Assembly: GCA_016342755.1 (NCBI GenBank)
Contig: JAEINS010000036.1
Location: forward strand, 1 to 34,924
From: Melioribacteraceae bacterium
Lineage (GTDB): Bacteria > Bacteroidota > Ignavibacteria > Ignavibacteriales > Melioribacteraceae
Length of the DNA stretch: 34,924 nt
Direction of reading: 5' to 3'
Part shown: positions 4,440-34,924 of the stretch, piece by piece
Layout: every line of letters begins with the position of its first letter
Position numbering within the stretch: the first letter of the stretch is position 1
Translations under genes and position numbers: made by a program
Notes under the pieces: generated by a model
Databases searched by the model: none
What the model saw: only the letters and a program-made list of their open reading frames with translations
What the model was told of the DNA's origin: nothing

Positions 4440-4949
4440 TTACAGCAAAGCAATACTTTTATAATCATCAAAATCACTTTTACTAAAACAGATGAGGTAA
4501 ACTTTTTTAATAGTACTATCATTTTTCAAGAATTCAGTAATAACTTTTAGAGCTATTTTACAAGCTCTTTCAAATGGGAATCCATAAATTCCCGTGCTGA
4601 TGGAAGGAAAGGCGATTGTATTAATTTTATTCCCGATTGCCAAATTAAGAGAATTTTTATAACAGTTAGATAATAATTGGTCTTCGTTATTATTACCGCC
4701 TTTCCAAACCGGACCAACTGTATGAATAACAAATTTTGTGGGCAGATTATATCCATTAGTTATTTTTGCGTATCCGGTTTTACAGCCATTTAAAGTTCTG
4801 CATTCTTCCAGTAACCTTGCTCCGGCTTTTCTGTGGATTGCTCCGTCAACACCGCCGCCGCCAAGTAAAGACTCATTAGCCGCATTTACAATTGCATCAA
4901 CTTTTAATTCTGTAATATCTCCTCGAATTATTTCAATACGTTTATCCAT
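4440..4949 (-). CDS. Macrodomain protein (ADP-ribose / O-acetyl-ADP-ribose hydrolase type)
   Basis: A stand-alone 169-residue macrodomain of the MacroD/YmdB type. These bind ADP-ribose and many remove O-acetyl or protein-linked ADP-ribose. Motifs seen are IIRGDIT at the N-terminus, [23 protein letters not shown] (residues about 18-40, with the catalytic Asn and the glycine-rich loop), IHTVGP, and the second loop [12 protein letters not shown]. All expected ADP-ribose-contacting segments are present. The start is one base after the cupin stop codon and uses GAGG inside the cupin 3' end, so the two are probably translationally coupled. The physiological substrate cannot be told from sequence. 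Confidence 0.93.
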
Positions 4950-4950
4950 C

Positions 4951-5445
4951 TTATTGCCTCGTAAACTTTGCGATTATTTCATTATGCTGGGGAAACTGTT
5001 CTGTTAGTTTCTCTTTCTCCGCAAGCTCAAAATCGGCGAAATCAAAACCAGGAGTAACCATACAGCCTAAAAGTGAATAACTATTTTTATCTGTTAACTC
5101 AGCCGCAAACCAGCTTTCAGCTTCAATAATAAACTGCGGCTCAATATTTTTTTCTAAATCAGTGCCAATGTCTTTATGAAAATAATTTCCTTTTTTATCA
5201 ATTACATGAATACGGACATATGATCCGGTGTGATGATACCAAAGTTCATCTGATTTTAATTTATGGAAAGAAGAAAATTGATCTTTTTCCAAAAGGAAAT
5301 AAATAGAAGTTGCTAATGATCTATTGACAGGCAAAGTATTAATAATCAGCTTGGTATTATTATTTGATCTGTAAACTTCTTTGTAATAACCACCTTCAGG
5401 GTGCGGAGTTAATTCCAGTTTTTTTATAATGTCTTTCGAGTCCAT
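4951..5445 (-). CDS. DUF985-family cupin protein
   Basis: A 164-residue single-domain cupin of the Cupin_5/DUF985 family. The characteristic start [16 protein letters not shown], the SIYFLL strand, the DELWYHH segment with the conserved His pair, and the late [14 protein letters not shown] motif are all visible. Members bind small molecules or sugar derivatives, and no reaction can be assigned from sequence. The start is supported by AAGGAATT just upstream of the ATG. It is the first gene of a two-gene minus-strand unit with the macrodomain protein. Its promoter should lie in 5446-5700, opposite to that of the GDH-like operon. Confidence 0.88.
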
Positions 5446-5748: not shown

Positions 5749-5762
5749 AAGTATAGGTGATT

Positions 5763-7049
5763 ATGACTTCAAATATTTATAACCCATTTAAGACCGCACA
5801 AATCCAATGTGAAAAAATATCTTCACTATTAGAATTAAATAAATCCGGTACAAATTATTTAAGTAATATATCAAGGGAATTTCACCTCAATATTCCTGTT
5901 AAAATGGATGATGGAAATATATCGGTTTTCAAGGGATATAGAGTTCAGCATAATAATTCTTTAGGACCTTTTATAGGGGGTGTCAGATTTCATCCTCAGG
6001 AATCGGTTGATATACTGCGGGCTATGGCAATGTGGATGACATGGCAGTGTGCGGTAATGAATTTACCTTTGGGTGGTTCAAATGGCGGAGTAATTTGTGA
6101 TCCTCACGATTTAAGTTTAGGTGAACAAGAAAAAATTTGCCGTGGCTATATTAGGCAGTTGGCAGACAATATTGGACCGGATAAAGATATACTTGCACCG
6201 GATATTATGACTTCGCCCCAGCACATGATCTGGATGCTGGATGAATATGAAATGATATTTAGAAAGAAAATTCCCGGAACTATTACTGGTAAGCCCGTAA
6301 AAATTGGTGGTTCGTTAGGTAGAAAAGAAGCAACCGGATATGGAGTAATTATAGCTTTGCGTGAAGCATTATCTGAACTGGATATTGAGTCGGAGAATAC
6401 AACAGCAAGTGTACAGGGATTTGGATCGGTTGCACAAAATGCAATTCAGCTTTATAATCAGATTGGCGGAGTTGTTAAAAGTGTTGCCTGCTGGGATCAA
6501 GCCGATCAGAAAAGCTATACTTACTTTAAAGCTGAAGGTATCAATTTAAATGAGCTTCAATCAATATCCGATATGTTTGGCGGAATTGAAAAAGACAAAG
6601 CTCAGGATTTGAATTATAAATTATTATCGGGGGAAGAATGGTTAACACAAAATGTTGATATTCTAATCCCGGCAGCAATCGAAAATCAGATTACTAAAGA
6701 AAATTTTGAAACCATTAGTAAAAGTGTGAAAATAATAGTTGAAGGAGCAAATGGTCCCATAGATATTGAAGCAGAACAGAATCTGATAGAAAAAGAAATA
6801 ACAATTCTGCCGGATATCATTTCTAATGCAGGCGGAGTTATTGCAAATTATTATGAACAAGTTCAGGGCATGTCAAATTACTATTGGGAAAAAAATGAAG
6901 TTTTGAGTAAGCTGGATCTGAAAATAACAAATTCATTTAACGATGTAATGGATATATCGAAAAGGATGAAACTTAGTTTACGTGATTCTGCTTATTTATA
7001 TTCAATAAATAATGTGCACGAGGCATCTGTACAGAGAGGCTGGATTTAA
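5763..7049 (+). CDS. Glutamate-dehydrogenase-like protein lacking the three signature lysines
   Basis: Full-length (428 aa) member of the Glu/Leu/Phe/Val dehydrogenase family. The N-terminal substrate domain includes GPFIGGVRFHP, AMWMTWQCAV and GGSNGGV. The C-terminal dinucleotide-binding domain includes GRKEATGYGV, VQGFGSVAQ, IPAAIENQIT and VEGANGPI. In characterised GDHs the matching positions are GPxKGG, TWKCA and GGGKGG, whose three lysines bind substrate and catalyse. Here they are Ile71, Gln95 and Asn107, with the family's exact spacing of 24 and 12. The Asp of APDIMT (147) is kept. Ordinary glutamate dehydrogenase activity is therefore doubtful, although the fold and nucleotide site look intact. 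ATG 5763 is preferred to GTG 5757 because AGGTG is the SD. It heads an operon with two ATP-grasp proteins, 30 bp downstream. Confidence 0.9.
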   Translation: MTSNIYNPFKTAQIQCEKISSLLELNKSGTNYLSNISREFHLNIPVKMDDGNISVFKGYRVQHNNSLGPFIGGVRFHPQESVDILRAMAMWMTWQCAVMNLPLGGSNGGVICDPHDLSLGEQEKICRGYIRQLADNIGPDKDILAPDIMTSPQHMIWMLDEYEMIFRKKIPGTITGKPVKIGGSLGRKEATGYGVIIALREALSELDIESENTTASVQGFGSVAQNAIQLYNQIGGVVKSVACWDQADQKSYTYFKAEGINLNELQSISDMFGGIEKDKAQDLNYKLLSGEEWLTQNVDILIPAAIENQITKENFETISKSVKIIVEGANGPIDIEAEQNLIEKEITILPDIISNAGGVIANYYEQVQGMSNYYWEKNEVLSKLDLKITNSFNDVMDISKRMKLSLRDSAYLYSINNVHEASVQRGWI

Positions 7050-7079: not shown

Positions 7080-8816
7080 ATGGATGATAGATCTAAAATT
7101 ACCATTAAAAAATTCAAACGAGATTTTTTTGAAAGTGAAAATCAGATTGCCGGAATTGGAACTGGTAGCATTGGCGGGAAAGCAAGCGGATTAGCTAACA
7201 TCGAAAACTTTCTTGCAGCTAGTTTTAATCATAATGAATTCCCTTCTGTAAAAATAAACATCCCATCCTTAGTTGTAATTAGAACAGATGTATTCGATAA
7301 ATTTATTGAACAAAATAAATTAGAGAAAATTGCATTTTCAGATGAGCGTGATTCTAAAATTGCCAATGCTTTTCAGAAAGCTGAGCTGCCATTTGAAATT
7401 CTTGGTGATCTTAGAACTATAGCTAACAACGTTAAAACTCCATTGGCTGTGCGTTCATCAAGCAAATTGGAAGACGCGCTGTTTGAACCATTTGCGGGTA
7501 TTTATTCAACAAAAATGCTTCCTAATAATCAGACAAGTGCCGATGAACGCTTTGTTAAACTATGCGAAGCAATCAAACTGGTTTATGCATCTGCGTTTTT
7601 TAAGAACGCAAAAGAATATTTTAAGGCAACAAAAAATAATATAGCTGATGAAAAAATGGCAGTTATAATACAGGAAGTTGTCGGCGGCAAGTTTTCAGAT
7701 AAATATTATCCGCATCTATCGGGTGTTGCCCGTTCATATAATTATTATTCATTTGGAAGAGCAAAACCTGAAGACGGAATAGTTAACTTAGCATTGGGAC
7801 TAGGAAAGACTATTGTTGATGGAGGAATTTCATGGTCGTATTCACCAGCATATCCTAAGTTGAGCCCGCCATATTCATCAATCTCAGACTTAATGAAAAA
7901 TACGCAGAATAAATTTTGGGCAATAAACATGGGAAAACCACCAGCTTATGATCCAATTAATGAAGCTGAGTTTATGTTTGAAAAAGATTTGGCAGATGCT
8001 GAAAAGGATAAAACCCTTAAATATTTAGCTTCGACTTATAATGTTAGTTCTGATAGGGTTAATATGGGAATTGGAATTTCCGGTCCGCGTATACTTAACT
8101 TTATGATGCTTTTACATTTTGAAGATATTCCGGTAAATAGAATTGTTAAAAACATGCTTAAGTTTTGTGAAGATAAGCTGAACACTCCTGTTGAAATAGA
8201 GTTTGCAATGACTTTTGATCCGTTACGATTTGGTCTTTTGCAAGTTAGACCAATGGTTGTCTCGGATGAAAAAGTAGATATTAATGAGTCGGGAATTGAA
8301 GAGGGCAATATTCTTTTAGGCTCTGAAAACGTGCTTGGAAACGGAGTTTACAGCGATATCAAAAATATAGTTTATGTGAAGCCGGAATCATTTGAAAGTA
8401 AATTTACAAAAGAAATTGCTGTGGAAGTTGAATCGATAAACAAGGACTTAATTAACAAGAAAGAACCGTATCTGGTAATTGGTTTTGGCCGATGGGGAAG
8501 TTCTGATCCATGGTTGGGAATACCTGTAAACTGGAGTAATATTTCTGGAGCCAGCGTTATAGTTGAGGTTGCTACCGAAAACATGAATGTTGATCTAAGT
8601 CAGGGATCACATTTTTTTCATAATCTGAATAGTTTTAAGGTAAGCTACTTTTCACTTTCAGCAATTAATAAATATAAAATAGATTGGAAATGGCTGGAGA
8701 ATCAGGCTATTATAAGCGATCAAAAGTTTGTTCGGCATATTCATTTAGAAAATCCGTTAAATATATTGGTTGATGGAAGAAAAAGATTAGGTATAGTTGA
8801 AAAATCCAGGGAATGA
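7080..8816 (+). CDS. PEP synthase/PPDK N-terminal-type ATP-grasp protein without phosphohistidine domain (first paralogue)
   Basis: A 578-residue PEP/pyruvate-binding (PPDK_N) family protein. ATP-grasp signatures visible are IGGKASGL (Lys34), AVRSSSKLED (about 122-131), VEIEFA and LLQVRPM (about 370-395), where PPDK usually has DIE. There is no TSDxxxH phosphohistidine swivel and no C-terminal PEP-binding barrel, so the complete PPDK or PEP synthase cycle cannot occur in this chain. Residues from about 410 instead form a module with GFGRWGSSDPWLG and SQGSHFF, which recurs in the next gene. The acceptor and reaction are unknown. It lies between the GDH-like gene and a longer paralogue, and its stop codon overlaps the next possible start (ATGA). 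The start has only a weak SD (GGG). Confidence 0.82.
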   Translation: MDDRSKITIKKFKRDFFESENQIAGIGTGSIGGKASGLANIENFLAASFNHNEFPSVKINIPSLVVIRTDVFDKFIEQNKLEKIAFSDERDSKIANAFQKAELPFEILGDLRTIANNVKTPLAVRSSSKLEDALFEPFAGIYSTKMLPNNQTSADERFVKLCEAIKLVYASAFFKNAKEYFKATKNNIADEKMAVIIQEVVGGKFSDKYYPHLSGVARSYNYYSFGRAKPEDGIVNLALGLGKTIVDGGISWSYSPAYPKLSPPYSSISDLMKNTQNKFWAINMGKPPAYDPINEAEFMFEKDLADAEKDKTLKYLASTYNVSSDRVNMGIGISGPRILNFMMLLHFEDIPVNRIVKNMLKFCEDKLNTPVEIEFAMTFDPLRFGLLQVRPMVVSDEKVDINESGIEEGNILLGSENVLGNGVYSDIKNIVYVKPESFESKFTKEIAVEVESINKDLINKKEPYLVIGFGRWGSSDPWLGIPVNWSNISGASVIVEVATENMNVDLSQGSHFFHNLNSFKVSYFSLSAINKYKIDWKWLENQAIISDQKFVRHIHLENPLNILVDGRKRLGIVEKSRE

Positions 8817-8818
8817 AA

Positions 8819-11554
8819 ATGGGTGAAACTGAAAGTTTAGCAAATCTGATAAGTGAGCTTAAAGAACGGGCAAAAGAGTTAAACTGCCTTTACGAGATTG
8901 ATGAGTTATTGCATGATCATGAAATTTCGATTGGGCAAATTTGTAATGGAATGGTAAACGCGATTCCTCGCGGTTGGCAGTTCCCGGAAATATGCAGCGT
9001 AAGAATTGAATTTGGAAATAAGGTTTATACTTCCTTGGTTTTTGCAGAGACTAAATGGAAGCAGAGTGCCAGTATAAAAGAGCAGAACCAGATAGTTGGG
9101 GAAATTGAAGTTTATTATTTGAAAGAAATGCCTGAACTTGACGAAGGCCCTTTTCTAAAAGAGGAACGTAAGCTTATTAATACAATTGCCGATAGATTTG
9201 GAAATCATATTCTTCATCGCAATTTGAAAAAGGTTTTTTCAGAAAAGGGTAATATTAAACAGCGAAGTGAATGGTGGGTGATTGTTGATCTTCTAAAAAA
9301 AACGGATACAAATTTATTACAGCGAATCTCTAGAAAAATGCTGAATTATCTTTGTTGGAGAGATATAACTAGTGCAAAGGAATTATTAGAAAGTTTTAGC
9401 CAGTTATATAAAGAGTTTATAGAAAATATTCAGGACGAAAATACACCGTTTCCAAAATTTTTGAATTATGATTATCTAAATATTACAGATAAAATTTTTA
9501 GGATTGCAAGTGAAAATATTAGTGAAGATGATATATTAGAATGTATTCAAAAATGGATTAAAGAAGATAGATCTGATTTTTTATTCGATACTTTGGAGAA
9601 TCAGAGTTCATCGCTTGCAGAAATTGCCGGAGCAATAGAGAAATATTATAATTTAGATCCGAGTGGACAGGAAATCTCTGAACCCAGATTAAAAGGGATT
9701 ATTGTAGCACTTATACGCAGATTGTTAAGTGACCAGCCTCAGTTTATCAACATCGCAAAAAATTATATACATATAAGTGAGTTTAATAAAATTTTTAAAC
9801 AAATTATTTTTCATGCTGATAGTAATGGAAAATTAGGAGGTAAAAGTTCCGGTGTAATTTTATCATGTGAGATTCTCAAAAATCATTCTGAAAAAAAACC
9901 GCTATTAACGGATGTGAAATTTCCTAAAACCCGGTACATAACTTCCGATGTACTTTTGAATTTTATAAACTATAATAATCTGGAAGATGTACTTGAGCAG
10001 AAATATAAGAGTATTGACGAGGTAAGGCAAGAATATCCATATATAATACATCTTTTTAAGAACTCGCAATTGCCACCCGAAATTATAAAAGGACTTCTAT
10101 TAATTATGGATGATCTGGGAGATTCGCCGCTTATTGTCCGAAGTTCAAGTTTACTGGAAGATAGAATGGGAACTGTATTTGCCGGCAAATACAAAAGTCT
10201 GTTTATTGCTAATCAGGGTAATAAAGAAGAACGGCTTATTGCTTTAATAGATGCAATCCTGGAAGTTTATGCTTCAACGTTTGGCCCAGATCCTATAGAA
10301 TATAGAGTTGATAGGGGATTAGAAGATTTTCATGAAGAGATGGGTATTCTGATTCAGGAAGTAGTGGGGAAGAAAATCGGGAAATACTTTTTCCCCTCAT
10401 TTGCCGGAGTTGCGTTTAGTAATAACGAATTTAGATGGTCCAGCAGAATTACCCAGAAAGATGGATTGTTAAGATTGGTTCCCGGACTTGGTACAAGAGC
10501 AGTTGATAGATTAAGCGATGATTATCCAATTTTAATTTCACCCGGTAAACCTAATTTAAGAGTAAATGTAACAGTTGATGAGGTTGTTAAATATTCTCCT
10601 AAAAAAATTGATGTTATAAATCTTGAGACAAATAAGTTTGAGACAAAAGACATTAATGAATTTATTAATGAAGTTAGATATGAATATCCGAAAATCAGAC
10701 AATTATTAACTATAATTGAGGATGATTGTTTACGCAACCCAAACGCGTTTGATCTTGATTTCGATAGCAATAAACATGTTATATCATTCGAAGGACTGTT
10801 GACAAAAACTCCGCTGATTAAACAGATTCATGAAATAATGAAATTACTAGAAGAAAAAATGAAATCGCCCATTGATATTGAGTTTGCCCATGACGGTGAT
10901 AATTTTTATCTGCTTCAATGCAGGGCCCAGAGTTATGGTGAAAACAATCAGCCGGCACTTATACCGATGGATATTAAAAGTGGTGAGGTATTATTTACTG
11001 CCAGAAGGTTTATTACTAACGGACTTGTAGAAGGAATTTCACACATTGTTTATGTAGACCCCAATAATTACTCTAGTCTGGAAACAAAAAATGATTATTT
11101 CAACATTGGGAAAATTGTTGGTAAACTGAACAAACTTCTTCCTAAGAAAAAATTTATTTTGATTGGACCGGGAAGATGGGGTTCCCGCGGTGATATAAAA
11201 CTCGGAGTTAATATAACTTATTCGGATATCAATAATACAGCTATGTTAATTGAGGTTGCGAAGAAAAAGAAAGATTTTGTACCTGATCTGTCTTTTGGTA
11301 CACATTTTTTCCAGGATCTTGTTGAAGCATCAATTAAGTATTTACCTCTATATCCGGATGATGAAGGGATAATTTTCTTTGAAGAGTTTTTCTTATCAAC
11401 TAAGAATAAGTTGGAAGAATATCTGCCGGAATTTAAAAAATATTCCGATACTGTAAAACTAATTGATATAAAAGAAGCTAAGGAAGGTAAGATGTTAAAG
11501 GTTTTAATGAATGCAGATATTGAAAAGGCAATTGGGCATTTCTATGAGGTTTAA
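8819..11554 (+). CDS. PEP synthase/PPDK N-terminal-type ATP-grasp protein with GAF-like N-terminal region (second paralogue)
   Basis: About 911 residues. Residues 1-145 resemble GAF-like input regions found in some sensor kinases, ending with an LKEERKLINTIADRFG-type helix. A helical middle region follows, then the ATP-grasp part with LGGKSSG (about 340), IVRSSSLLEDRMG (about 440), and DIEFAHDG plus LLQCR (about 685-700). The C-terminal module has GPGRWGSRGDIKLG (about 783) and SFGTHFFQDL, shared with the upstream paralogue. No phosphohistidine motif or PEP barrel is present. ATG 8819 is favoured over 8813 because AGGGA is six bases upstream. ATG 8813 would overlap the previous stop codon. 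The gene ends the operon. ATP binding is likely, while substrate and product are unknown. The GAF-like label is by eye. Confidence 0.82.
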   Translation: MGETESLANLISELKERAKELNCLYEIDELLHDHEISIGQICNGMVNAIPRGWQFPEICSVRIEFGNKVYTSLVFAETKWKQSASIKEQNQIVGEIEVYYLKEMPELDEGPFLKEERKLINTIADRFGNHILHRNLKKVFSEKGNIKQRSEWWVIVDLLKKTDTNLLQRISRKMLNYLCWRDITSAKELLESFSQLYKEFIENIQDENTPFPKFLNYDYLNITDKIFRIASENISEDDILECIQKWIKEDRSDFLFDTLENQSSSLAEIAGAIEKYYNLDPSGQEISEPRLKGIIVALIRRLLSDQPQFINIAKNYIHISEFNKIFKQIIFHADSNGKLGGKSSGVILSCEILKNHSEKKPLLTDVKFPKTRYITSDVLLNFINYNNLEDVLEQKYKSIDEVRQEYPYIIHLFKNSQLPPEIIKGLLLIMDDLGDSPLIVRSSSLLEDRMGTVFAGKYKSLFIANQGNKEERLIALIDAILEVYASTFGPDPIEYRVDRGLEDFHEEMGILIQEVVGKKIGKYFFPSFAGVAFSNNEFRWSSRITQKDGLLRLVPGLGTRAVDRLSDDYPILISPGKPNLRVNVTVDEVVKYSPKKIDVINLETNKFETKDINEFINEVRYEYPKIRQLLTIIEDDCLRNPNAFDLDFDSNKHVISFEGLLTKTPLIKQIHEIMKLLEEKMKSPIDIEFAHDGDNFYLLQCRAQSYGENNQPALIPMDIKSGEVLFTARRFITNGLVEGISHIVYVDPNNYSSLETKNDYFNIGKIVGKLNKLLPKKKFILIGPGRWGSRGDIKLGVNITYSDINNTAMLIEVAKKKKDFVPDLSFGTHFFQDLVEASIKYLPLYPDDEGIIFFEEFFLSTKNKLEEYLPEFKKYSDTVKLIDIKEAKEGKMLKVLMNADIEKAIGHFYEV

Positions 11555-33412: not shown

Positions 33413-33487
33413 CGGGGCGTAGCGTAGTCCGGTCAGCGCGCCTGCTTTGGGAGCAGGAGGTCGCAGGTTCGAATCCTGCCGCCCCGA
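33413..33487 (+). tRNA. tRNA-Pro (anticodon TGG)
   Basis: Acceptor CGGGGCG pairs with CGCCCCG. The anticodon stem CCTGC/GCAGG encloses TTTGGGA, giving TGG. The T arm is GCAGGTTCGAATCCTGC and the discriminator is A. CCA is not encoded. Confidence 0.96.
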
Positions 33488-33561
33488 CATATATGAAAAT
33501 TTGGTTTTTTAGTCAAATTTTTTTTGTTCTTAAGAAGATTGAATTAAGCTGTTATTGAGAT

Positions 33562-33635
33562 GCGCCAGTAGCTCAATTGGATAGAGCAACAGCCTTCTAA
33601 GCTGTAGGTTAATGGTTCGAGTCCATTCTGGCGTA
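33562..33635 (+). tRNA. tRNA-Arg (anticodon TCT)
   Basis: Acceptor GCGCCAG pairs with CTGGCGT (terminal G-U pair). The anticodon stem ACAGC/GCTGT encloses CTTCTAA, giving TCT. The T arm contains GGTTCGAGTCC and the discriminator is A. CCA is not encoded. Confidence 0.95.
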
Positions 33636-33649
33636 CTTAGTATCTAGAT

Positions 33650-33727
33650 GGTGGGTGTAGCTCAGTTGGTTAGAGCGTCTGGTTGTGGCCCAGAAGGTCG
33701 TGGGTTCAATCCCCATCACTCACCCCA
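33650..33727 (+). tRNA. tRNA-His (anticodon GTG)
   Basis: Acceptor GTGGGTG pairs with CACTCAC, with the extra G at -1 (33650) facing C73, as specific to tRNA-His. The anticodon loop TTGTGGC gives GTG. CCA is encoded (33725-33727). Confidence 0.96.
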
Positions 33728-33748
33728 ATCTTATTTAATTTTTAATCT

Positions 33749-33822
33749 GGCCCGTTGGTGTAATTGGTTAACACGTCGCCCTTTCACGGCGAAGAGTACG
33801 GGTTCGAGTCCCGTACGGGTCA
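33749..33822 (+). tRNA. tRNA-Glu (anticodon TTC)
   Basis: Acceptor GGCCCGT pairs with ACGGGTC. The anticodon stem TCGCC/GGCGA encloses CTTTCAC, giving TTC. The T arm is ACGGGTTCGAGTCCCGT and the discriminator is A. It is the last of the four tRNAs and the one nearest the integrase remnant. Confidence 0.95.
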
Positions 33823-33830
33823 CATAATTA

Positions 33831-34136: not shown

Positions 34137-34852
34137 TCAAAATTTTAACTGTACTTTAAAGGAAATCCGGGAATTGATCTCATCGGCTGCTTTTTGATGA
34201 TCTACTCCAGCGTAATACTTTAGAGTAGTTTTTATATTACTGTGTCTTGCAAAATTTTTCACTAGAAAAATATTTACTCCGGCATTGGCCATGTTACTTA
34301 AACAATATTTTCTAAAATCATGCGATTTAATTTTTACTCCAGTTGCTTCTTCTGCTCTCCGGAGAAATGCTTTGAAGTTTCCATAAGTTGTATTAAAATA
34401 AATTTCTCTTTCTTTGGACACTGGGCATTCCTTAAAAAACTCTTTGAGATCTTCAGTGAGAGGAACAGCTGCTTTTTTATTTCCTTTGCCTAAGACATTT
34501 ATTTGAATGGAATTTACATCAGATTTCTTTAGGTTGAGAGCTTCCTCTATTCTGAATGCAGATAAAACTAAAAACTTGACCAGGTAATAATGCTTTTTTC
34601 CTTTTGCATATTCAAAAAACTTCCTCATGTTTTCATCAGAAATAATCTCAAGATCCTTAACTTCTTCAGCAACGGTTTTCATATGATTTTTCTGAATAAC
34701 ATTTTCTTTCGAGAGCCAGTTAAATATTGCATAAACCCTTGAAGTGTAAATCGCTTGAGTATTTTGAGAAAGCTTAGCTCTCTCCATCTCATCAATAAAA
34801 TAGTAATAGTCTTCTCTGGTGTATGTCGAGATTGCCTTATCTGGAACTGATG
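34137..34852 (-). pseudogene. Tyrosine recombinase (integrase) truncated at its 5' end by an insertion sequence
   Basis: The C-terminal catalytic domain is complete by eye: Arg in SAFRIEEALNL, Lys in VLGKGNKKAAVPL, the HDFRK box, FARHSNIKTTLKYYAG with the second His and the nucleophile Tyr. Upstream there is only the second half of the N-terminal core-binding domain (from about TSVPDKAIST). The frame runs on for 16 residues into an IS-like end at 34853 and its only start there is a TTG inside that IS, so the original N-terminus has been cut off. It faces the tRNA cluster about 300 bp away, the usual setting for integrated elements. It is probably inactive, although a fusion protein from the TTG cannot be excluded. 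Confidence 0.72.
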
Positions 34853-34924
34853 TGAGCCCTAAAAAGTGGACATAAAAAAAATAGTATATTACTCTAACCA
34901 AGGAGGAAATTATGTCTACCGAAA
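34853..34924 (+). mobile_element. Left end of an IS3-like insertion sequence (cut by window edge)
   Basis: TGAGCCCTAAAAAGTGGACA starts with TG and carries the AGTGGACA stretch common in IS3-family terminal repeats. It is followed by a short leader, a strong SD and a start codon, the layout of an IS3 orfA. The right end is outside the window, so family assignment is provisional. The boundary could be 34851 (TGTGAG) rather than 34853. Confidence 0.55.
34912..34924 (+). CDS. Start of a probable IS transposase gene (partial)
   Basis: ATG at 34912, preceded by AAGGAGG at five-base spacing, reads Met-Ser-Thr-Glu before the window ends. Its position just inside the IS end suggests transposase OrfA. 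Four residues cannot confirm this. Confidence 0.45.

Follow-up and report, generated by a model that had tools for sequence, protein, structure and literature searches.

A glutamate dehydrogenase-fold protein with all three signature lysines replaced, encoded in an operon with two PPDK_N proteins of a Melioribacteraceae bacterium

Results and Discussion

The window, i.e. the whole stretch of 34,924 nucleotides from a Melioribacteraceae bacterium that was analysed, encodes a full-length protein of the glutamate dehydrogenase (GDH) fold, P0001, in which the three signature lysines of the family and a fourth substrate-site residue are all replaced. P0001 is probably, and we say so with moderate confidence, a catalytically dead GDH paralogue that has been retained for the role of a regulatory or scaffold subunit. 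The initial annotation had offered a pseudoenzyme, a sensor or an enzyme of changed chemistry as possible readings, and among these the pseudoenzyme is best supported, by the intact reading frame and fold, by the presence of an intact paralogue in the host and by the recurrence of similar losses in 12 other genes.

Sequence and predicted fold of P0001

The gene and its replaced residues are located in the window as follows.

5763–7049, forward strand: lysine-less GDH-fold protein P0001, 428 residues; open reading frame from ATG, Pfam domains ELFV_dehydrog_N and ELFV_dehydrog, model pLDDT 93.7
5973–5975, forward strand: Ile71 (ATA), in place of the GPxKGG lysine (Clostridium symbiosum K89 type), from alignment and codon
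6045–6047, forward strand: Gln95 (CAG), in place of the TWKCA lysine (K113 type), from alignment and codon
6081–6083, forward strand: Asn107 (AAT), in place of the catalytic GGGKGG lysine (K125 type), from alignment and codon
6846–6848, forward strand: Asn362, in place of serine (S380 type), the fourth substrate-site change; coordinates counted from the ATG at 5763

An alternative start, GTG at 5757, is possible. Residues 7–428 of P0001 align with the Pyrococcus/Thermococcus GDH structures 1gtm, 1bvu and 1euz (348.6, 336.2 and 335.3 bits, respectively), without any gap across the GPxKGG, TWKxAV and GGGKGG motifs and with the same motif spacing, as the initial annotation had read from the letters. 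Since the alignment is gap-free over the motifs, the three lysines are indeed replaced by Ile, Gln and Asn, a claim that the codons bear out as well. In 81 orthologues, lysine is found at the positions of residues 71, 95 and 107 in 81, 81 and 80 sequences, respectively, the sole exception at position 107 (L139) being itself another lysine-less paralogue; as these positions are near-universally lysine, the substitutions are not due to chance. Position 362, which we take to be the equivalent of Ser380 in the C. symbiosum enzyme, is a serine in 81 of 81 orthologues and an asparagine in P0001. In the C. symbiosum enzyme, the residues of the K89, K113 and S380 types bind the substrate carboxylates, and those of the K125 and D165 types serve in catalysis. 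P0001 lacks both of these marks of a catalytic GDH, the three signature lysines (I71, Q95, N107) and the Ser380-type substrate residue (Asn362), whereas the catalytic-type aspartate, Asp147, is retained, as had been noted.

Further changes concern Pro144, replaced by leucine, and Asn222 within the GFGNVA motif, replaced by serine. Because of this last change the nucleotide-binding motif, described initially as kept, is only partly so: most of it stands, but its asparagine does not, and cofactor binding may be altered. The two Pfam families PF02812 and PF00208 give 171.9 and 201.9 bits against cut-offs of 25.3 and 23.4, and the two-domain ELFV fold is present. The score with the NCBIfam equivalog GdhA_Arch (NF040817), 395.2 bits against a cut-off of 750, does not discriminate, since two intact relatives miss the cut-off too (462.4 and 466.5). 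The match to leucine and phenylalanine dehydrogenases (LeuDH/PheDH) is weak at the sequence level. P0001 retains 120 of 143 near-invariant GDH columns and departs at 23.

The AlphaFold2 model of P0001 has a mean pLDDT of 93.7, and the 50 entries listed among its structure matches all belong to the GDH family (Z 48.6–58.0). Chain D of the Thermus heterohexamer 3aoe matches with Z 54.4, an rmsd of 1.6 and 32% identity, and the Pyrococcus furiosus enzyme (1gtm) is 42% identical to P0001. Together with the retained columns, the model upholds the earlier statement that the rest of the fold is kept.

Intact GDH paralogues in the host genome

A search of the host genome (4.73 Mb in 56 contigs) reveals two GDHs beside P0001. 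L002, located on another contig (C14) and outside the P0001 operon, has all three lysines (KKK) and is 57% identical to P0001; it adjoins a long PPDK_N protein carrying a nucleotidyltransferase. L003, on contig C28, is of the 450-residue type and also has all three lysines. A normal GDH, which the initial annotation had proposed to look for, is therefore found in the host in the form of L002. The dN/dS between P0001 and this intact host copy is 0.22, a value that mixes both lineages.

Organization of the operon

Downstream of P0001 two genes follow on the same strand.

7080–8816, forward strand: short PPDK_N ATP-grasp protein P0002, 578 residues; well conserved, the sole short-type copy among the host's four matches
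8813–11554, forward strand: long PPDK_N protein P0003, 913 residues; ATP-grasp, C-terminal nucleotidyltransferase absent

P0002 starts 30 bases after P0001, and P0003 overlaps P0002 by 4 bases; all three operon genes (3/3) are open. P0002 departs at only 2 of 109 near-invariant columns, and P0003 at 18 of 191, five of these departures falling in the part that P0003 has in common with its orthologues and 13 in the domain that it lacks. In the P0003 model, whose mean pLDDT is only 71.5, the N-terminal strand-helix order looks GAF-like and the remainder matches the ATP-grasp domains of rifampin phosphotransferase and PEP synthase.

The same operon is headed by an intact GDH at many of the loci fetched from the host family and from other phyla (among L033–L075 and L125–L164). 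The usual order is GDH, short PPDK_N protein (sometimes missing) and long PPDK_N protein of about 1060 residues, the C-terminus of the latter corresponding to NTP_transf_2 (28.3 and 32.5 bits in two scanned proteins, the cut-off being 21) and carrying a GS...SDIDL motif of the GSTKNATAGPxSDIDL type. P0003 stops before this nucleotidyltransferase domain. The functions attributed here to the PPDK_N proteins and to the nucleotidyltransferase are those predicted from the domain names. In the titles and abstract beginnings covered by our literature search, no description of a GDH-PPDK_N-nucleotidyltransferase operon or of a GDH control module of this kind was found. A search for defence systems with PADLOC gave no match for P0001, P0002 or P0003, which speaks against a role of this kind, and a promoter scan returned 30 sites where 31.4 were expected.

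GDHs of the second subfamily, i.e. the 450-residue type, are paired with PPDK_N proteins of about 1000 residues as well (L126:3237-7717 on host contig C28 and other loci, e.g. L163 and L137), which suggests a wider GDH/PPDK_N partnership; in L126 a sub-threshold, receiver-like match lies near the N-terminus of the PPDK_N protein. Elsewhere in the window, the reverse strand upstream of the operon (4440–5445) encodes a macro-domain protein and a Cupin_5 (DUF985) protein, and an open reading frame at 34137–34901 (reverse strand), tyrosine-recombinase-like by eye, adjoins a cluster of four tRNAs (33413–33823) at the contig end.

Recurrence of the catalytic-lysine loss

Several groups of genomes were searched for related genes. 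In the host family (79 genomes) all 29 of the 29 other archaeal-type loci returned were read, then the operons of 38 chosen places. From the host phylum, 395 genomes were drawn out of a larger group, of which 14 outside the family matched at E ≤1e-150 and five were read. In the phylum of G448 (245 genomes, 11 matches) every returned locus was read, in that of G449 (40 genomes) the returned loci and second copies, and in that of G454, where 132 genomes were queried with the L165 protein, each of the 70 matches; a genome-contig search added the best 80 of 289 confirmed stretches. Among the 315 GDH-like open reading frames thus read, a number that includes duplicates and partial frames, 289 are K/K/K with the aspartate and the serine, and the exact Ile/Gln/Asn set occurs only at the window locus (three copies of it). 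After removal of duplicates, of frames shorter than 395 residues and of sequences below 47% identity, 173 distinct KKK genes stand against 13 genes that have lost the catalytic lysine, the window gene included. The replacing residue in these 13 is Asn in six, Met in five, Arg in one and Ala in one; the 12 genes other than P0001 are L139, L165, L242–L250 and L300. The initial annotation had made its reading depend on the substitutions not being confined to one genome: among the loci read they are confined to it as an exact set, but the loss of the catalytic lysine is not.

The phylum of G454 is the richest in such genes. There, 61 of the 132 genomes match at E ≤1e-120 and 11 of the 70 matches are without the catalytic lysine; all nine two-copy genomes (9/9) pair one intact copy with one lysine-lost copy, and in G793 and G829 nothing but the lost copy matches at that threshold. 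The four two-copy genomes of the G449 phylum, on the other hand, all keep the lysine in both copies (4/4), which shows that duplication by itself is not enough to bring about its loss. Nine of the 12 other lost genes share their genome with an intact copy.

What these paralogues have in common with P0001 is the loss of the catalytic lysine. Unlike P0001, all of them keep Ser362 and most keep K71 and K95, the exceptions being Ala71 in L165 and L249 and Gln95 in L247 and L249. Judged from the GDH tree, P0001 and the other lost paralogues are likely to have separate origins. Remodelling around the former active site is recurrent: Ala145, two residues before Asp147, is changed in 11 of the 13 lost genes, and Val85, Thr84, Leu88 and Asn222 are changed in 10, eight, seven and six of them, counts that are inflated by shared ancestry inside clades. 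Ala145 is unchanged in L139 and in the window gene. The latter differs from the other silenced copies in the absence of this common change and in a substrate site that is more extensively lost. The other lost genes depart at 6–37 of the 143 near-invariant columns, compared with the 23 of P0001 and with a median of 0 and a maximum of 9 in intact genes. In the Met/Arg-type copies (L242, L243, L245, L246, L247 and L250), the alanine before the catalytic-type aspartate is a glutamate in six of six, a recurring charge change at a dead active site; in L250 the catalytic-type aspartate itself is also a glutamate.

Partner genes and the nucleotidyltransferase domain

Of the 11 lost genes whose flanks could be read, 10 have a gene of this PPDK_N family as a neighbour (9/10 without the window gene). 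The exception is L242, which has no PPDK_N partner in an operon, only a weak 374-residue open reading frame on the opposite strand. Outside this count are L300 and L248, the latter on a contig that stops 500 bases past the gene and holds nothing before it. In L165 and L249 the gene order is reversed, yet the GDH gene still abuts that of the long PPDK_N protein, at a distance of 12 bases and with a 4-base overlap, respectively.

The nucleotidyltransferase was scored by profile in 70 distinct pairs of GDH and long PPDK_N protein with a complete C-terminus. It is present in 57 of 62 pairs with an intact GDH, in four of four with a GDH of the Met/Arg type and in none of the four with a GDH of the Asn/Ala type (the window copy, L165, L244 and L249). 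Low scorers among the 57 are L161 (46.8 bits) and L258 (18.9). The five intact exceptions comprise L045, whose partner is split in two open reading frames, L159, in which it is degenerate, L064 and L066, where a 766-residue protein lies more than 3 kb away, and L046. The last of these (L046:7391-9733) has an intact-lysine GDH with a 780-residue long PPDK_N partner that is truly without the nucleotidyltransferase. An exact test of 0/4 against 57/62 gives p = 1.7e-4, with the reservation that the cases are not independent, the coupling being founded on four of them, two of which (L165 and L249) share an ancestor; in the tree of the long proteins three losses are required to explain the four labelled rows. 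Nor is the coupling strict, since the Met/Arg copies keep the domain and at least one KKK locus, L046, lacks it.

Phylogeny and selection

The GDH tree (65 rows) puts the lost genes in five places. The window gene groups with Neomarinimicrobiota (100/95), L139 falls in the host family (95/85) and the rest lie elsewhere: the pair L244/L248 near the intact copies of the same genomes, the six Met/Arg copies in a clade (96/97) and an AKN/AQA pair (97/97). The starred branches force at least three changes to catalytic-lysine loss. The losses need four changes, and a single clade of all silenced copies is rejected at the borderline by the AU test (p = 0.048). Both the exact number of origins and the placements are unsure on account of long branches, that of the window gene most of all. 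A recent duplication of the intact host gene as the origin of P0001 is unsupported, given the grouping with Neomarinimicrobiota. Horizontal gain is possible; the G+C content of the operon (0.33–0.36) does not stand out from the range of the window (0.29–0.37).

The branch of the window GDH measures 1.5 against a median of 0.24, and the branches of the two operon partners (0.57 and 0.56) are much shorter; the length of the GDH branch could also reflect relaxed constraint. In its tree P0003 belongs to a starred set of six rows (98), its nearest neighbours by path being from Calditrichia, a same-class genome and Delongbacteria, whereas the tree of P0002 places this protein outside any starred set. 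The searches yielded no relative of the window gene above about 60%. For the K-to-N trio L244, L248 and L300, dN/dS amounts to 0.047, 0.053 and 0.058 at dS of 0.84–1.53, compared with 0.031 for the intact KKK copies of two of these genomes, all values being obtained by a simple count method with partly saturated synonymous sites. With dN/dS near 0.05, the K-to-N class has been maintained by purifying selection since it lost the lysine, and is not decaying. The initial proposal that P0001 is not a decaying gene gains support by analogy with this trio and from the kept columns of the window gene itself.

Proposed role and alternative explanations

We propose that P0001 would be unable to turn over glutamate while forming an oligomer of the GDH type, either a hexamer of its own or one mixed with the 57%-identical intact paralogue, possibly with NAD(H) binding retained. 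It could serve as a regulatory or scaffold subunit that couples the co-encoded ATP-grasp proteins to catalytic GDH activity, much as GdhA of Thermus acts on GdhB; the nucleotidyltransferase would act on, or respond to, a working GDH and be dispensable beside some dead ones. Since the substrate site is erased entirely, a sensor of glutamate or 2-oxoglutarate is less likely for the window gene than for the copies that have lost only the catalytic lysine, and a structural or regulatory role toward the intact GDH or the PPDK_N proteins is favoured for the same reason. A broader picture, which we put forward only tentatively, is that several phyla use a GDH control module made of a GDH, two PPDK_N proteins and a nucleotidyltransferase that acts on or senses the working GDH; the GDH would repeatedly have become a signalling subunit without catalysis through replacement of its catalytic lysine, the nucleotidyltransferase would have been dropped with some of the silenced copies, and the window gene, its substrate site wholly erased, would be the most extreme case.

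P0001 might instead be a substrate-free NAD(H) sensor, or a homohexameric scaffold for the two PPDK_N proteins that never touches a catalytic GDH. The retention of the operon partners and, largely, of the nucleotide-binding half would agree with such a role, as would the location of the intact paralogue elsewhere in the genome and the way in which L165 and L249 stay in contact with the long PPDK_N gene in spite of the reversed order. We nevertheless hold it to be unlikely: the serine at position 222 lies in the nucleotide motif, at a position altered in 6/13 silenced copies, and the intact copy kept by every two-copy genome (9/9) of the phylum of G454 fits a partner role. Slow decay, in which P0001 would be a redundant copy under relaxed selection with its frame still unbroken, could account for the very long branch, for the fact that the exact substitution set is seen nowhere else among the loci read and for the domain lost by the long partner P0003. 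The open frames of all three genes, the 120 of 143 columns kept, the near-perfect conservation of P0002 (2/109 changed) and the strong constraint on three similar silenced genes elsewhere argue against it, and we regard decay as very improbable.

LeuDH and PheDH have a hydrophobic residue at the K89 position, and Ile71 could by analogy line a hydrophobic pocket as in leucine dehydrogenase, so that P0001 would act on another amino acid, an imine or a simple amine. We take Gln95 and Asn107 to correspond to K68 and K80 of LeuDH; with positions matched in this way, P0001 does not have the two lysines of the K68/K80 type. Such changed chemistry would be in line with the kept Asp147, and an engineered amine dehydrogenase derived from LeuDH tolerates K68S (PMC6033044). 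The same engineered variant, K68S/E114V/N261L/V291C, leaves untouched K80, a residue called highly conserved (PMC6033044). The counterpart of K80 is lost in P0001. As the catalytic lysine itself is gone, and with the match to LeuDH/PheDH being weak, changed chemistry is disfavoured and seems to us hardly probable.

If our preferred reading of P0001 as a catalytically dead, regulatory or scaffold paralogue is true, the fact that maintained paralogues have lost the catalytic lysine again and again, with the same ATP-grasp partners next to them in 10/11 cases with readable flanks, would mean that a GDH is readily converted to a regulator. It would moreover give an entry into the GDH, PPDK_N and nucleotidyltransferase operon, where carbon metabolism meets nitrogen metabolism, and the idea can be tested directly on the intact and silenced copies that occur in pairs.

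Comparison with known systems

Compared with the archaeal-type NAD(P)-GDH (GdhA_Arch NF040817, 1gtm), P0001 shares the full-length fold and the motif spacing but replaces all three lysines and the Ser380-type residue. LeuDH and PheDH belong to the same superfamily, and their two lysines are Gln and Asn in P0001; the active-site lysines in question are K68/K80 in LeuDH and K66/K78 in PheDH (PMC6033044). In Bacillus GudB, a GDH is inactivated by a repeat and not by lysine loss. S. aureus YwlG is a GDH-related protein for which its authors suggest a possible role as a pseudoenzyme activating another GDH (PMC9522360); it has half the size of a GDH and is without the N-terminal catalytic domain, unlike the full-length P0001 (PMC9522360). 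The title of PDB entry 7mfm, a glutamate synthase, glutamate dehydrogenase counter-enzyme complex, suggests that a GDH may be the partner of another enzyme.

That inactive relatives of an enzyme regulate its active form is well known. The closest likeness is found in Thermus thermophilus, whose GdhA is a catalytically inactive regulatory subunit of the GdhA/GdhB heterohexamer, for leucine activation (PMC9570180); in the text passages covered by our literature search, this is the only established case of such an inactive relative for a full-length bacterial GDH. In both systems a GDH-fold subunit exists beside a catalytic GDH, the likeness being drawn from the reported inactivity of GdhA and from the fold match. 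The host indeed has a catalytic paralogue in the same genome (L002), and P0001 has lost catalytic residues, GdhA's own lysine positions standing outside this comparison. The two systems differ in their further partners, which is an adenine phosphoribosyltransferase homologue for the Thermus complex (PMC8387880) whereas the neighbours of P0001 are PPDK_N proteins.
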